The position numbers and the translations under genes were made by a program. This document shows positions 18,321 to 52,490 of a DNA stretch of 64,000 bases, in pieces. How positions within the stretch are numbered: the stretch's first letter is position 1; each line of letters starts with the position of its first letter. This DNA is from Acanthochlamys bracteata (lineage: Eukaryota > Streptophyta > Magnoliopsida > Pandanales > Velloziaceae). Below the pieces are notes generated by a model. The model was not told the origin of the DNA and did no database searches. It saw only the letters and a program-made list of their open reading frames with translations. Where the stretch lies: positions 3,698,461 through 3,762,460 of the forward strand of contig CM034139.1 in NCBI GenBank assembly GCA_019914995.1, read 5' to 3'.

Positions 18321-18887
18321 CATAGTTGTAAAACCCAACCCGATATATGACCAAAAAAATTACCTGATCACCGAATAATCGAACGGGTCAAATTAAATTT
18401 ATTAAATAAATATTAATATATAAATACATATAAATATATTATATAGTATATTTTATAGCAACTATTAAAAATATAAAAAAATAATTATATACGAAAAATA
18501 TTGAATATATTTTTGAAATTACTACAGTACTTAAGATAATAATAAAAAAACTCTAACGTATAGTAAAATCTCTATACTTTATGCATTAAAAAGAACAAAT
18601 TATCTACACTATATATTTTATTTATTTATTACTTTCTAATAAAATATAAAAAATAAGAAAATAAATTAGTAATAGAAGAATACCCGATAAAATGCATATT
18701 TTAAAATATTAATAAAAATACTTTTTTATTTTAAATAAATAAATATATATATATTTTTTTTAAATATTAAAACCGGATCAATCGGGTCACCGAGTTGATC
18801 CGGGACTCGGTCGGGTCGACTCTAATCTTACCGGGTCGTCAGTTTTCGGTCCGATCCGGCCGGTCCGAGCCGAGTTTTAAAACTATG
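18321..18887. mobile_element. Non-autonomous hAT element (family A), 567 bp
   Basis: The left end CATAGTTGTAAAACCCAACC and the right end (reverse strand CATAGTTTTAAAACTCGG) are imperfect terminal inverted repeats, and the 8-bp target duplication CTTACAAC flanks them at 18313-18320 and 18888-18895. Subterminal regions are rich in CCGG and GGGTC words and the middle is AT-rich with no coding potential. An 8-bp duplication with these short ends indicates the hAT superfamily. Confidence 0.9.
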
Positions 18888-21724: not shown

Positions 21725-22009
21725 TTTGCATGTTTACAAAGCAGCACCATTCGTACGTGTCTTCGCAGTGTTGGTCCAATTATAAGCAAATTCTTATTAT
21801 ATGATAAAGATGGAATTTGGAGAATGGCCAGTGTAGGATAAGAGCAAATCCTTACCAGGTGGCAAGTTTTTGTTGCATTTGGTCAACTTACAGGATCAAG
21901 TTCACAGCAAGTTTATTCAACTTGTGAGATTAAAGCCCTTGTGGTGAAAGAAAGCAAACCGTACGTGCACAGGTTTGCTCGCATAGCATTGATCCTGCAC
22001 TGAGGACAC

Positions 22010-22762
22010 ATGCAGAGTAACTCGAGATACTTCACTGGTTACGGTTACACCCATGATGGGCATGATCCCCTTTTGGGTGGCCATGGTGCATACAGCAACC
22101 CAATTGCTCCTCCCTTGCCAGATGCTTTACAAGGTAGGAACCACGAGTTGCCTAGGCAACTGGCTGGGATAGAGTTTCAACCCACTGAAATCTGCCCCAA
22201 GAACTTCATAATCTTTGACCAGACCGAGAAGAAAAGCCGGGTTATGTACCATCCAACATGGGCCCACAATTTTGGTTCCCCTGGTTTTGATGTCCATGCA
22301 ACCCAAGTTCAAGATGGGTTTCATGGTTTTACTTCGTACAATGATAACCACGACGATTCTTCCACACCTCTTCAAGAGGACACTGAGGACATTGATGCAT
22401 TACTTAGTTCAGGAGATGAAGAAGGAAATGATGACGATGAAGAAGAAGAAGAAGAAGAGGATGATGATGTAGTCAGCACAGGACGTACGCCAGGCAGTTT
22501 GGCCCGCAACTCCTCCATCTCTTCATGTTCGACAGAGAGGTGCAAATATCGAAACTCTTCCGCAGCGAAATCATATTCCAGCACAGCTGGCAGCAGTGAA
22601 AGGAAGAAGGCCAGAATGAGAAAGATGGTTAGAGCTCTCAGAGGGATAATTCCTGGTAGTGATCAGATGGACACCTCTGCAGTGATAGATGAAGCTGTTA
22701 AATACCTGAAATCCCTCAAGGTGGAAGTAAAGAAGCTCGGGGTCGAGAATCTTGAGGATTGA
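22010..22762 (+). CDS. Atypical bHLH transcription factor, SAC51/bHLH143-145 type
   Basis: Main ORF of 250 residues, intact. The family block CPKNFIIFDQTEKKSRVMYH is at about 62-81, an acidic run (mostly Glu/Asp) at about 135-153, a Ser-rich linker at 165-197, and the HLH at about 198-244 with MRKMVRALRGIIPGSDQMDT and AVKYLKSLKVEVKKLG. The basic region lacks the usual His-Glu-Arg DNA-contact set, so E-box binding in the normal way is doubtful; such proteins act through dimers. Arabidopsis SAC51 suppresses the acl5 (thermospermine-deficient) dwarf. The start follows the conserved spliced upstream ORF, and the family motif order begins soon after it. Nuclear action is inferred. Confidence 0.92.
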   Translation: MQSNSRYFTGYGYTHDGHDPLLGGHGAYSNPIAPPLPDALQGRNHELPRQLAGIEFQPTEICPKNFIIFDQTEKKSRVMYHPTWAHNFGSPGFDVHATQVQDGFHGFTSYNDNHDDSSTPLQEDTEDIDALLSSGDEEGNDDDEEEEEEEDDDVVSTGRTPGSLARNSSISSCSTERCKYRNSSAAKSYSSTAGSSERKKARMRKMVRALRGIIPGSDQMDTSAVIDEAVKYLKSLKVEVKKLGVENLED

Positions 22763-27830: not shown

Positions 27831-28769
27831 TTAGTGCATATTCTTTTGAAATAAGAAGATAGCAGTAGTGGATAAAGTAAAATAATCTTAAAAAAAGAAC
27901 AACCATATATACGTACAGAGGATTGATGATCTACTATGACAATAATTGCAATTCGGATAGCTAGTGTCTTTGTTTTCTTTGTTTCATGTAATTCATGCAA
28001 GAGCTCTCTTTGGTGCAGTTTTGAATGTGCTTTTTTTAATTTTAATTTTTAATATTATACTTTTTAATAAAATTTTATAATTATTTTATTAAGATTTAGA
28101 AATAAAAAAAATTAATTACCGAAAACACTCTTAAATATATATATTTTTTAAATAGAAAGTAGGGAGGCCTCGGACATAGTTAGAGTGCTTATTAATGTTT
28201 TTAAAATTTTATTTTATATTTTAAAATAAAATTCATATTATTTTAAAGTTTTTAATATTTAAAATAAAAATTAATTATACTTTATAAAATATTTTACAAT
28301 ATGAATAAAAGAGCAGCTTGCTTGCACGCTCACGCGGAAGGCTCAACACGCGTACGTGCAAAACGCTCCTGCTTTCACATTTGTCCAAAAACCACCGGAC
28401 AAATTAAAACCATGTAAAACCCGACCCGATAATTGATCCGGATTTGTGTCCGGGTCGTCGGATTAACCTGCCGGATTGTAACTAAGAAATATTATTCAAA
28501 ACATAAGTCCATACAACAATTTATATAACAAATACCAATAATTTTAAACTAAAAATAATGTCATAGATAACCAACAACGTGCTCCAAATGAGGTCAATAC
28601 TCAACTGAAATTGTATTTAATACCAGCAGTCTACAATCACGTTCTCCACTCATTTTTTCATACAACTATTATACAGATTTTAATATTATGATCCTAAGAA
28701 AACTAACAACAACATTCTTTATGATAAAATGAGTCAAATCCTACAGACTAAGCAAATCCTCATTCCAAG

Positions 28770-29391
28770 TTAGAATGCAGTAAGAAGAGAAAGCCATGGC
28801 AAAGAAAAGATACCAACAGCCATGACAGAACTAATCACTGAAACGCTGCCTGAGACAATGTTACTTGAATTCGGCAATAGTGAAGGAGCAGCACCTGAAC
28901 CGAGAGGTATCGGCAAATTCATGACATCAATCAGCAGCCTCATTCCTTTCTCGCAGTAATTTTAATCACTGCTAACAAAATAGTAGAATCATGGCCTGTC
29001 TAACAATAGCAAAGTCCTTCCATCTGTGAACACCGTATCGCTTCCACTTTCATTGTAGTGATAGTAAACTGTTTTCTCAACTTTCACCACTGAATCATTC
29101 TTATATTCAAACACTGATTCAGAAAACTTAAAATGTAAGTGATTGGAACAAGTGTTTTCATGCATGCAAATTATGCAAACATGTTAAAAAGACAGAAAAA
29201 AATCACTGACTGATAGTCTCCAACAAAGAAATTGATCTTGCTAGCCCACTGTTGGTAGAAATCAACTTGGTCATTCTCAGAAATCTTCCAACCTTCTCTG
29301 TCATCGACATTGTAAACACTCCTGTTGTTCCTGCAGAATCAATGAACGGCAGCGAAGACGAAGAACAAACCAGCACGGATGAAGATGCTAT
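28770..29391 (-). pseudogene. Early nodulin-like phytocyanin pseudogene inside the hAT element
   Basis: Early nodulin-like proteins are GPI-anchored phytocyanins of the plant cell surface that lost copper binding. On the minus strand one sees the signal peptide core (IFIRAGLFFVFAAVH, then a stop), the plastocyanin-like start (DREGWKISENDQVDFYQQWA, FFVGDY), an intron of about 95 bases, then the second exon (ESVFEYKNDSVVKVEK, FTDGRTLLLLDRP), CEKGMRLLIDVM, a Pro/Ser-rich linker, and a hydrophobic C-tail of the GPI-signal kind ending at TAA 28770. Breaks are the start codon changed to ATA, an early frameshift, stops in the signal peptide and after DRP, and one before the CEKG block. It is close to full length, so capture took a whole gene body. 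Confidence 0.85.
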
Positions 29392-29614
29392 AAAGGAGCA
29401 GAAATTTTTTTCCTTTTTCTTGATTTCAAACAATGCAAACTCTGATCACATATAAAGAAAGAATTTGTTTGTAAATGGAAGTGTTGTAGTTCATGTATAT
29501 AGAACTACAAACGGATGTGTCGATTAATGGAACAATTATTTTGAAGGTTTAGTTTCGTCTCGAACAAAAAAAAACTGAGAGTGGAGAACTTGCCGGATAA
29601 AGTACTACAGAGAG

Positions 29615-29931
29615 TCATCTGGTCACCGGGTCCTTCTTCTTGCTTGGCATCTTCTCCTTCATCTTATCCTTCACTCTCTTCTTCCTCCTGCTTCCTTCTC
29701 CATCACTCTCCTGCATTATAGTCATTCATACACTAAAGTTCAGAAATTTGTTCTTTCCACTGATAGCAAAATTCTCAAAGAACGGAAATGATAAGAACTT
29801 ACAGAGCTGCTAGAGCTAGGGCCGCTGGATCAGTGAAGCTTCTCGCCTAGACCTTTCTTCTCGGGCTGATGATGAGCACCGTATGCTTCGGCCGGAGCAC
29901 CATAAGCTCCATTCTGTTGCTGCTTGTTACA
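29615..29931 (-). pseudogene. Dehydrin fragment (S- and K-segment region) inside the hAT element
   Basis: Two exon pieces on the minus strand. Exon piece 1 (29931-29803) reads NGAYGAPAEAYGAHHQPEKK, GLGEKLH, a stop, then SSGPSSSSS, ending at a donor GTAAGT. Exon piece 2 (29710-29615) follows an acceptor ATGCAG with ESDGEGSRRKKR and KDKMKEKMPSKKKD, ending in TGA. A poly-Ser S-segment split by an intron and followed by an acidic run, RRKK and a K-like segment is the dehydrin (LEA group 2) layout. The N-terminal part with Y-segments is missing. The stop just before the S-segment shows decay. It points the same way as the nodulin-like piece but comes from a different family. Confidence 0.78.
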
Positions 29932-30303
29932 TGGTTGTCGTACTCGAGTAGAGAGTGGTGTCTAGTCCGAGAAGAAATTTAGCCGTCAGGGGAGCTCGTC
30001 GGGAAACACGGGCCAGCTCGTCGGTGCACCGGAGAAGAGAAGTAGAACGAAATTGAAATAGAAATTTAGGATTCAATTGAGCTGGGTAAGTATAAGGTTA
30101 GGTTTTTATTATAAAAAAATTTCTATTGGAGCGGGTTGATCCGGACGGACGGATCGTCCGGATCAAAACGGGTTATAACGGATCACAACGGATTAATAGT
30201 ATGAATAGTTTATTTGCATATCCGAATCGATTTGTCGTTTGGATCGACGATTTTTGGGTTCATCCGTTCGGTCCGGTCCGGATTTAACAACTATGATTAA
30301 AAC

Positions 30304-32929: not shown

Positions 32930-35653
32930 TCATGGATGGTTGTTGTTGTTGTTGGGGATGAATGAATTAGGCACAATGTCATGCAGGAGACCGTGATCAC
33001 TAGGCAGCTGATGATGAAGCTGGAGAGATGGTATTGCTAGGTTTTGGAAGAACATGTTACTATTATTTGCATCCATCTGATGATGGCTAGCAATTGTAAC
33101 ACCTCCGCTGCTGCTTGACGGAATCCCAAAGAGATCATGGCGGAAGCTTGGTGCAGCAGATATCACCGAGTTAGACGCTAAGGAGTGAGTGCTGCCTCTT
33201 AGAATTGAAGGGCTGTGGTGAGAGTGCTGTCCTTCGTATGTCGTTATCACGACGGTTGGGTCTTGGTAAGATCTTTCCACTCTCTTCTTTACTGGGCATT
33301 TCTGTGTTGTGCATCTGTAGTAGCTCCTGCAATCCAAATTTAAGCATATGTTCAAATTCAGCAATCAAAGAGTATCAACCTAAAAGTCAAAAGTTGCAGC
33401 AGAGAAAAAAAAAAAGCTATAATCTGTCAATCAATATGATACGATAATAGATATATACTTCAGTCTATAGATTCTTGATTAATATTCACGAATTTTCATT
33501 TGCATGTTTGTTGCTATAAAATCCTCTTTCGTTATAATTCGCATATATATGTAGATGTGTGCTATCTTGAAAAAATTATTATCGCAAGACTAAATTGCAT
33601 ACATTCATTTGGATAGTTGCAAGTTCAAATTAACTAAATGAGACTATCTTGAAATAATCGATGACAGTTGAAATCGAGAAAATATCAAAAGGTCGCAAAA
33701 AATAAAACATTTTAATGAGACTGTATGTGTGATATATGCTTGTTATCTCTCAATTATTTGGAAAATAACTTTGTACCAAAAACAATAAAACTTATTCTGA
33801 AAAAAAAAACGAAACAATTAAAACATTTGATTAAATGGAAAACGAACGTGTTTGTTTTAAAAGAAAATTTTGAACAAATGTGTAATGATACACTCATTAT
33901 CTACCGATGTCAACTGAAATAAATTAACCCAACACATTTTCATTCTCCACAATATTAAAAAAACATGCTATGTAATAACAACTGATGACACAGGTTCTAC
34001 TAATATTGTGTGAAAACAACAATGTAGTAAGTATATATAGCTTAGCTACATGGTAAGGAAAAGATTTAAACATGAAAAGGAAGAAAATCCAATTGATTTA
34101 ACGATTATGTTTGATTATTAGTATATGGTCAGTGCATAGAAAAGTAATAGAGTATACCTTGGATAAGGGCTGTTCTTAACAGCCTTCTGTCCGTACTTCC
34201 TCCACCTGTATCCATCTTCAAGATGATCGACTTCGCTCTTCGTCATGAACGCGAATCGGGGATCTCTCTGCCGCTTCTCTCCCTTCTTTCTTGGTTTGTT
34301 CCTGAAAATTCGATCATGCATAAATAATCCAAAATGAACTCAACAAATGACAATATAGTCAGATTTAATTAAAAGGAAAAGAAAATTCGATATGAACTCA
34401 GATGGACTAAGAAACAGTTTGTCTGACTTCGATTGCTCATCGAGATTAATACTAATGAAAGGTCTACTCCTAGCAATCACATCGATTGCCTAACTATATT
34501 TATATATATACACTCAAATCTTTTTGTGAACATCTTGAAGAAAATGATTGATATGGTTGATTCAATCGCATCAAGAAAGATGAAGCTATAATCAATAAGC
34601 TACTAAGCTATAAAAGCTAAGCTACGTTTTCTGCTGATGGTTGAACAGGAACCCTAATAGACACTTGCCCTTTTAGATTCTTAGCTTAATACCATTACAA
34701 GCAAGAAATTCATGTAGATGATAGAAAGAGATGTTGAGAAGAAAACTCAAGAACATGATGAAGAAAGATCAATGACTAAATACAAAAACCCTAGAAATGT
34801 CATAAGGGGGAAAAAAAGAAAAGGTATTAGTGGTTTTGAAGACTTCAACTCATAAAATTAATTAACTAGTCTTTTGAAGTTTGAAACTCAGAGAAAGAAA
34901 TGACCAAATCAAAGATGAAATCTGTACTGAAAAACATGTTTTCAGGAAAGCAAAGATTTCTAACATTTCACACTTATTAATTACTGCACATATGCTTTAT
35001 CAGATCAATATTATATAATTAAGTTCTTACATTTTCTTTCCTTTTTGATCTGGTGATTCATCTTCTTCTTGATCTCCTTTTTCCTTCTCTTGTTGCTGCA
35101 GATCTTCTTGTGGATCTTTGTTGCTGCACCGTTCTGAATCTTCTTCACCTGCAGCTTCAGTCGATGAAGACGACACTGAAGATATCGGCGTTATAGGCGT
35201 AGTTCCTCCGCGTCCACCTCCAGTAACACCACCACCACTTCGTCCTCCTTGATTCAACACATGATTAACATTCGACGATAAATCGTTCTGCATAACTGGT
35301 TCACTCATAACTTTTTGGTCCTCATCGCGATTCGGCCCGAGCAAATCTGGCGAATACGAGAACGAGGAGTAATCAAAAGCCTTCCCCAAGCTTCCGTAAT
35401 CGTTGCTTGAAGCACTAAACAAATCACTGAAGCTTCCATCAAGTAATTGCGGGTGCTGCTGCTGTTGCTGATGATACTGGTCCTGATGACCTTGCAGTAC
35501 TGTGGTTGCTGCTGTCACGGTACTGCTCGGTCTCGGCGCAAAGAGGGATAACAGATCTTCGTTGCCGTAGTGGAAAAACCTGTTAGTCCGATCGGTTCCA
35601 AAGAAGAGCTGTTGATCTTTGTTATGGAAGAACTCCTTGTTCTCCCTTGACAT
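32930..35653 (-). CDS. WRKY transcription factor, group IIc (WRKY8/28/71 type)
   Basis: Three exons on the minus strand: 35653-35031, 34301-34158 and 33326-32930, all with GT/AG borders and matching phases, giving 387 residues. The N-terminal exon is Ser/Gln-rich and acidic near its end. The WRKY domain starts in exon 2 ([27 protein letters not shown]) and is split at PYPR/SYYRC, the usual intron place in most WRKY groups. The zinc ligands are Cys-X4-Cys (CTTQKC) and, 23 residues on, His-Ser-His, which is group IIc. CTTQKC with [19 protein letters not shown] and the following SILRG fits the WRKY8/28/71 branch, linked in Arabidopsis to stress, salicylate and branching control. The His/Asn-rich tail ends in an Asn run. 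The gene looks intact. It binds W-boxes in the nucleus. Confidence 0.93.
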
Positions 35654-36160
35654 GAATGCAATACAGAAGTTTTGATCTCTATGTGAAAAGATGGAGTAGA
35701 AAAGAAGCTATAAGAAAGAAAAAAGAGTGTTGAATGAGAACAAGAAGAAGTGAAGCCTGCTTTGCTTTTTGTTTTGGTACAAATATAGAGAACAAAATTT
35801 TCAATTTAATTTATTAATTAATTTTTGTGTTTTTATTTTGTGTGAACTGAGGAATTGTCAACAGGTTAATAGAGAGAGCATTGGATAATAGTAGACGAGG
35901 TGTTGAGTCAGCGGCCAACGAAGACCCACCGGTAATCACCGGTCGCGATGAGGCGCTACTACATCAGTGGGGACCACAAAACTCGAGGTTTGAATCGTGT
36001 AGCTAATAGGCACCGGCTTTTGACCGCTCCTCTAGCACGTGGGAAGCCGCAGTTTAATTACGTCACTTTCCGTCATGTTAGAACCTGCGTCCTGGTTCTA
36101 TGATGAATAAGAAACCGTTGGATAAAGATCGGACGGTCGATATCGGTCAAGTGTAGACGG
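35654..36160 (-). promoter_or_regulatory. WRKY gene promoter with W-boxes and a G-box
   Basis: Upstream of the WRKY start, full W-boxes (TTGACC) occur at 36020-36025 on the plus strand and at 36145-36150 on the minus strand, with a G-box CACGTG at 36036-36041 between them. The block 35880-36190 is less AT-rich than its flanks. W-boxes in a WRKY promoter suggest self- or cross-regulation, which is inferred. A weak TATA-like box lies near 35780-35790. Confidence 0.5.
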
Positions 36161-50643: not shown

Positions 50644-52490
50644 TCAAGTCTTATTTGAGTTCGGATCGACCCAAAAATGATTCGAAAAATTTAAACGGAT
50701 TCGGATTGACTCGAAATTGATCCGTTTAATCCGTATAACTATTTATATAATATTTAATAATTAGAAAAAAAATTTAAATTTAATGTGTATATATATATAT
50801 ATATATTTAATTTATCTTAATTTTAACTAATTTTTATTTAATTTATAAAATTTTATCAAAATTAATATTTATAATTTTTATTTAATAATTTAATTATTAA
50901 ATGGGTCGATCCGAGTTTGATCTAATTATAAATAGGTTAGGTTAGGGTTGACAATTTTGACCCATATAAATAAATGGGTCGAATTATGGTTGAATAATTT
51001 TGATCCGATTATTATATAGATCGATCCGGAATCGACTCATTAATCCATATTGCCACCCTTAATTTTGGAGTTCTAAAGTAAAAACGTTTCTAAAAAATTA
51101 ATATAAAGTTATTAAAAGAATAAGTTTAATGCTTATCTCAGGATGTAGTTAATAAATAAATAAATAAATAAATAAATAAATATATATATATTTTATTATA
51201 TATAGTTTAAAATTTAAAATATATTTACTTTTAAATAAAAAAAATACTCCTTCATATTTCCACAATCTTTATCAACGACTATTGACTTAATAGCATAGTT
51301 GTAAGAACCGGACCGGATATCGAACCGGAAAATTATCTGGGTCACGGTTTTTGGGTCGAACCGTCGGGTCAATAATATTAAAATATTTTAATTAATAATA
51401 ATAATTATTATAGTAAAAAATTTATTGCCAATGATACTACCAATAATAATAGCAATAATAATCATAGCAAAAAATTAAAATATTTTTATTATAGCATTAC
51501 TATCAACAATAACAGTAATAATAATCACAGCAAAAATTGAAGTATTGTCACCACCAATAACAATAATAACAACTAAAATTTATAATAATAAATATTTAAA
51601 TAAATTAGGAGATTAGAAAAAAATAAAATCATAAATAGAGAAATCATAAAGAGATATAACAAAATTTTTTAGGTATACATATTTGATTCTAAATATTTTA
51701 CAATATAAAAATTTAAAAATCACTAATAATTGATATTTACAAATAAGATATAAGTAATTATATTTTTGCATTATCACATTCAAATACAAAATTTAAACTA
51801 CATATTATTTTTCAAGATAGGATTATTAATAATTATTTTTGTAATAAATATGTCATCAATTTAAAATTTTTTAATTAATTTTTAAATATTTTTTTAATTA
51901 ATTAAAAAAAACGGTTTTTTTGCAGACCCGGACCGGTTTACCGTCCGGGTCGACGGGTCGGTCCGGGTCTGACAACACTGCTTAATAGATCGTCTGAAAA
52001 GTATTTTTGTAAAGAACTTTTTTAAAATAAAAATATTTTTATTTTTTAAGTTACTTCAAAAATTTTATAATATAAATTTTTTTATATTTTAAAATTTTAA
52101 AATAAATTTTATTGATAATTATAAAATAAAAAATTAAAATAAATTTTTAAAAAAAAGTAAAATTGAAACGTGCCACCGCACTCCAACAAGTTTAGACAGG
52201 GTGATAACTGATTGCACCGCATTCCACTCTCCATCCTCCATTGTTCTGGAATACCAACTTATTTTCTTTCAATTTCTTCAGAACCAAGCTAACAAATACA
52301 AATAAAAAATATACATACATATATATATATATATATATTAATTGATTAAGTTAGCTGTGAAACGCCGTAATTTATGTATTATTATTATTAGTGTTTTGAT
52401 AACAAGGTTTCAACCATACTGTTTCCACTTGTTCACTTATCTAGCTTTTGGGTTTGGTTTGATGGGTTGGTCAATTTTGATCAATTTATG
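50644..52490. repeat. Tandem duplication, copy B (1847 bp, with a hAT insert)
   Basis: Same sequence as copy A plus a 687-bp hAT element and its 8-bp duplication; without these it is 1152 bp. Copy B ends at CAATTTATG and is followed by unique sequence (AACTTGACTATGG). Confidence 0.93.
51294..51980. mobile_element. Non-autonomous hAT element (family A), 687 bp, in copy B
   Basis: The left end CATAGTTGTAAGAACCGG and right end (reverse) CAGTGTTGTCAGACCCGG are flanked by the perfect 8-bp duplication CTTAATAG at 51286-51293 and 51981-51988. The subterminal parts are CCGG-rich; the centre has AATAAT/CAATAATAA-type simple text shared with the 56.1 kb element. The sister copy A has the same site without the insert. 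Confidence 0.93.

Follow-up and report, generated by a model that had tools for sequence, protein, structure and literature searches.

Host-gene capture by hAT transposons has precedents. As described in the available parts of the sources, maize Ds elements have captured intron-bearing gene fragments (PMC3260210), gene-fragment capture is reported for the grapevine family Hatvine-6 (PMC2528002), and gene capture by hAT appears again as Pack-hAT (PMC8903248), in a study that also documents stepwise stacking of pieces from two genes in Pack-PIF cluster 18. The first-pass annotation of the locus considered here, which presented gene capture by a hAT element as unusual, was thus too strong: hAT gene capture and two-gene stacking (in Pack-PIF) are already known, and the composite described below is a further case.

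The locus lies in the Acanthochlamys bracteata genome (195.5 Mb), in a window of 64,000 nucleotides (C14:3698461-3762460), by which we mean the whole stretch of DNA analysed. Positions 28411-30295 of this window almost certainly form a non-autonomous hAT-type composite element of the Pack kind (Pack-hAT), the parts of which are collected in Table 1. An 8-bp target-site duplication (TSD) had been claimed for a single hAT element at this place, and it is present at both ends. The ATTAAAAC 8-mer by itself is no evidence, because it occurs 8 times in the window against a mean of 12 in shuffles; the evidence is its placement exactly at both ends of the element. Sister copies have CATAGTTGTAAAATCCG or a near match at the left end, where the window copy is 4 bp short, and the copy on C9 has CATAGTTGTNAAATCCG at both ends as short terminal inverted repeats (TIRs). 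Genome-wide, the 22-base end pattern (one mismatch at most) was found at 131 places, versus none for the reversed control. The longest listed open reading frame inside the element has 76 aa, and the element is without a transposase.

Table 1. Features of the composite element and its immediate borders (window positions)
Feature	Position	Strand	Remarks
Left TSD copy	28403-28410		8 bp, ATTAAAAC
Left carrier end (TIR and subterminal sequence)	28411-28550	+	
Receptor-like-kinase remnant	28551-28608	-	58 bp, 79% to C5 gene
Inverted arm, copied from upstream of the nodulin-like parent	28633-28651	+	18/19 bp in window
Early nodulin-like (plastocyanin-like) gene, nearly whole	28654-29592	-	87% to C3 gene; ~200 bp upstream of start, exon 1, intron 29114-29210, exon 2, 3' flank
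Strip between nodulin-like and dehydrin pieces	29593-29617		contains AAAGTACTACA
Dehydrin piece (exon 1-intron-exon 2 core)	29618-29946	-	82% to C7 gene
Right carrier part and TIR	29961-30295		
Right TSD copy	30296-30303		8 bp, ATTAAAAC

Around the element, the window holds on one side a frame at 22004-22762 that we take from its translation to be bHLH-like, and on the other side minus-strand frames at 32930-33364 and 35027-35707, presumably WRKY-like on the same basis. It also contains a small hAT-type element at 18321-18887, whose ends (CATAGTTGTAAAACCC) are similar and whose 8-bp TSD (CTTACAAC) is perfect, and another hAT-type element of 687 bp at 51294-51980, with the TSD CTTAATAG.

Inside the element, two minus-strand pieces with visible intron borders had been read, a nearly complete early nodulin-like gene and part of a dehydrin gene, and both were recovered. 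The two introns have GT..AG borders and stand at the same places as in the parents. As introns are retained in both pieces, DNA and not mRNA was copied, in agreement with the DNA-level capture proposed earlier. A search of the element's own genome matched the nodulin-like piece (element 244-1182) to C3:5148359 at 87% and C5:6130204 at 76%, and the dehydrin piece (element 1208-1536) to C7:4719547 at 82% and C12:4817270 at 74%. The best match of each, on C3 and C7, is a gene with an intact frame, so that the parents anticipated by the first-pass annotation exist in parent-like form. When spliced, the C3 gene (L012) encodes 178 aa with the Pfam domain Cu_bind_like (6.3e-20) and matches mavicyanin and stellacyanin chains, while the C7 gene encodes 132 aa with the Pfam domain Dehydrin (3.5e-36). 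The captured dehydrin piece runs from coding position 39 in exon 1, via the intron at 29711-29802, into exon 2.

The nodulin-like gene is a dead passenger, as had been thought: in the window copy the start is lost (ATA at 29389-29391), and the frame has frameshifts and two in-register stops. One of its exons, taken alone from the window, falls short of Pfam's cut-off (E 0.03). A stretch of 17-18 bp of coding sequence, absent from today's C3 gene, is present in all six copies described below and in the C5 paralog; the capture therefore predates the loss on C3, or the source was a close relative of the C3 gene that retained the stretch. Of the exact 21-mers in the window copy, 61 are shared with the region of the C3 nodulin-like gene and 23 with that of the C7 dehydrin gene, through which small RNAs may target the parent-like genes. 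A hairpin source of small RNAs in the nodulin-like part was considered and set aside, its folding being only slightly better than that of shuffles (z -1.70, with 1 of 20 shuffles as good).

The composite is present at six places: C14 (the window), C6, C9, C2, C13, and C15. The count is a lower bound, as the own-genome search scored 40 of 168 candidates; a search with the left end, in which all nine candidates were scored, recovered the same six places. The TSDs match at 8 of 8 positions in C14, C9 (ATCATCAT), and C13 (GTTTTAAC), at 7 of 8 in C6 (CATCCCAC/TATCCCAC), and weakly, at 6 of 8, in C2 (CTCTAGTG/TTTTAGTG); the C15 copy has lost its right end. Since five of the six copies have a TSD of their own, the composite moved as a unit, cargo included. 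The three copies on C14, C6, and C9 are closest to each other (K2P of 0.05-0.06), with all other pairs at 0.16-0.18. A gap over element 978-1209 is common to C13 and C15 and represents a later deletion, because the C3 gene is continuous across that stretch. In the nodulin-like frame, all six copies have lost 2 bp and have a stop at codon 111, and from these common disabling changes it follows that the gene had been disrupted before the family spread. The copies also bear on whether two elements, nested or side by side and with a single gene apiece, have been mistaken for one, an idea to which the other elements with similar ends in the window (those at 18321-18887 and 51294-51980) lend some color. 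However, the same order is found in six copies and the outer-end duplication in five, and the other copies keep both ends together. The copies thus contradict a two-element reading, which we regard as very nearly negligible; both ends belong to one element, as first annotated.

A third host gene has left a trace in the element, which adds to the two pieces annotated at first. Element 141-198, on the left-hand side of the nodulin-like piece, matches a receptor-like-kinase gene on C5, with an identity that rises from the window's value to 83% in C9. The remnant is detected in four of the six copies at E<=0.01 (42-51 bits), with 1,000 shuffles of the C9 left part giving at most 35.4 bits; at this threshold it was not detected in C2 and C13. 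A stretch of the C5 gene matches the BAK1 and BRI1 kinase chains, and the C5 gene itself has stops in its frames. A sister element, L025, holds ~585 bp of the same gene at 85% between related left and right parts and is likely an earlier state of the carrier; it matches element 73-204 at 80%, a span that includes the kinase remnant. The kinase-fragment element in L025 spans 1381 to about 2560 (C9:449280 onward). Bases 409-588 of the 687-bp element in the window are 83% like L025 798-980, which lie inside a second small element adjoining the kinase carrier.

The borders of the nodulin-like piece are informative about how it was taken up. Between the kinase remnant and the nodulin-like piece, five of the six copies carry an inverted arm of 19-27 bp, with an identity of 25/26 in C2 and C15, 26/27 in C13, and 18/19 in C14 and C6, and with no arm in C9. 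Its longest exact match in C2 is 22 bp, the best of 500 shuffles being 12. The arm can be read as a template-switch junction. At the right border, the nodulin-like piece adjoins GAGAGTGGAGA, a run of 11 bases that was also noted by eye in the right part of L025. The 25-bp strip that follows contains AAAGTACTACA, which recurs in L025's right part in a match of only 11 bp that 2 of 1,000 shuffles equalled; the strip may be read as leftover carrier. L079 was tried as further support for the strip and rejected, since the two have no exact match as long as 8 bp.

These borders can be set against the Pack-TYPE model (Gisby and Catoni 2022), in which DNA trapped between two neighboring related insertions is mobilized as one. 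The available text of PMC8903248 proposes it for all DNA superfamilies tested, hAT included, which speaks in its favor. Here, however, the parent-like genes sit apart, on C3, C7, and C5, inspection of the six-copy alignment by eye showed no inner TIR, and an inverted arm derived from the captured gene's own upstream sequence is not expected from trapping. We consider trapping rather improbable and, because of the inverted arm, favor copying during break repair.

Elements with other cargo on the same right part are instructive as to order. Parts of the right carrier are common to L018-L021, L022-L024, and L025. In L018-L021 the right part is followed by dehydrin exon 1 and part of the intron and then, inside the intron, by other sequence, with no nodulin-like piece found in any of the four. 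Their dehydrin match starts at coding position 39 in L018, 43 in L020 and L021, and 65 in L019, which is bounded by a perfect TSD (CTCAAAAC). L019, L020, and L021 are found in a stretch of about 95 kb of C1, with flanks in common, so that the four probably represent two insertions. In L019 (1513-3450) the dehydrin part is joined to ~1.4 kb of other sequence, likewise in L018, L020, and L021, and similar stretches occur at C3:7453989 and C4:8043903. In a dehydrin tree with weak support, L018-L021 did not group with the window family, and the group might have lost a nodulin-like piece rather than never having held one.

Whether the two pieces were taken in one step or two had been left to an alignment of copies and parents, and the outcome points to several steps as more likely. 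A single complex repair event, which jumped from the dehydrin locus to the nodulin-like one and left filler in the middle, would explain why only a short strip separates the two pieces, and one repair with several switches would also fit the inverted arm and the short right-border homology. Such an event is nonetheless unlikely, if worth serious thought, as L018-L021 have the dehydrin piece and right part without the nodulin-like piece and with nearly the same dehydrin start, and as the strip between the pieces resembles L025. Serial capture is probable on the combined grounds of the kinase remnant, the inverted arm, the dehydrin piece without the nodulin-like piece, and the other cargo on the right part. 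K2P to the parent is 0.19-0.38 for the dehydrin intron, over 74-77 bp, versus 0.11-0.155 for the nodulin-like intron and flanks; an older dehydrin capture would fit these values, but the stretch is too short to rely on, and we do not use it as a date.

Further cargo is found in L022, L023, and L024, where the shared right part comes with ~325 bp matching C1:9428728 at 92% identity. We take this cargo to resemble the start of a PEAPOD (TIFY4) gene; a Pfam search of the L022 cargo matched no PEAPOD model. L035 and L036, which match element 3-51 at 90% and 86%, respectively, have left ends like that of the window copy, followed by an interior 72-74% like L022-L024. Counting the kinase, dehydrin, nodulin-like, and PEAPOD-like cargo, fragments from at least four host genes have thus been carried by elements of this group. 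All four identified pieces read away from the right end, for which the two-sided chance is 0.125, and no orientation bias is claimed. More speculatively, the carrier could be a serial cargo-swapping platform. Its right module would have repeatedly gained kinase, dehydrin, nodulin-like, and PEAPOD-like genes close to one inner border, each of them reading away from it; the module may then act as a promoter or first exon and give rise to fused transcripts, and a break point that recurs may guide capture. To this extended proposal we assign a low probability.

The source of the transposase was sought among 150 hAT-domain loci. At none of the 30 of these loci searched was an element end (two substitutions at most) found within about 1.5 kb, and 1 of 100 ends (of the 131) lay within 6 kb of any of the 150, with about one expected. 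Two pairs of facing ends, C1:8513628-8518749 and C9:1008255-1015614, were considered as autonomous partners and rejected, none of the 112 matches to PF14372, a second hAT domain, falling inside either. As no transposase-bearing element with these ends was found in these searches, the hAT assignment rests on the length of the TSD and on the ends.

Taken together, we regard the following course, in which kinase uptake was followed by uptake of the dehydrin and nodulin-like pieces through break repair and then by transposition in trans, as reasonably probable. A carrier with CATAGTTGT ends would first have held the receptor-kinase piece. The dehydrin piece would then have been taken up near the right end of the carrier, and the nearly whole early nodulin-like gene would have replaced most of the kinase piece. 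Each uptake would most likely have taken place during repair of a break inside the element, in which genomic DNA was copied and the template changed at short homologies. Finally, a transposase supplied in trans would have mobilized the composite as a unit.

The main merit of the case is that capture order is readable. Sister elements with other cargo and parent-like genes occur together in one genome, so that the junctions can be read and a likely sequence of captures worked out. An inverted arm that derives from upstream of the captured gene itself is a mark expected of template switching and speaks to the problem of how genes are acquired by cut-and-paste elements. Among the titles listed in the literature search, none concerned a hAT element with nodulin-like and dehydrin pieces, and the available parts of a 2026 review of gene capture (PMC13317346) do not mention hAT under the terms tried.

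Among known systems, as far as the available texts describe them, the animal Pack-TIRs (PMC8277862) resemble the present junctions in short homology and filler from elsewhere and are explained by gap filling and template switching, whereas here a six-copy plant family is concerned, with borders examined by alignment only. Hatvine-6 (PMC2528002) is likewise a hAT family with TIRs in common and variable inserts from introns and exons, but it keeps transposase coding sequence, none of which is seen in the A. bracteata element. Maize Ds2 and Ds-l4 (PMC3260210) belong to hAT and, as here, carry gene fragments that include introns and were copied from other chromosomes; simple Ds elements carry one gene each, and the compound Ds-l4 has several pieces between two elements. 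Pack-hAT (PMC8903248) shares with the present element its non-autonomous nature, 8-bp TSD, captured host coding DNA, and several copies, whereas the A. bracteata composite has, in addition, a gene that is nearly whole and keeps its intron, a second piece, a third trace, and an inverted junction arm.
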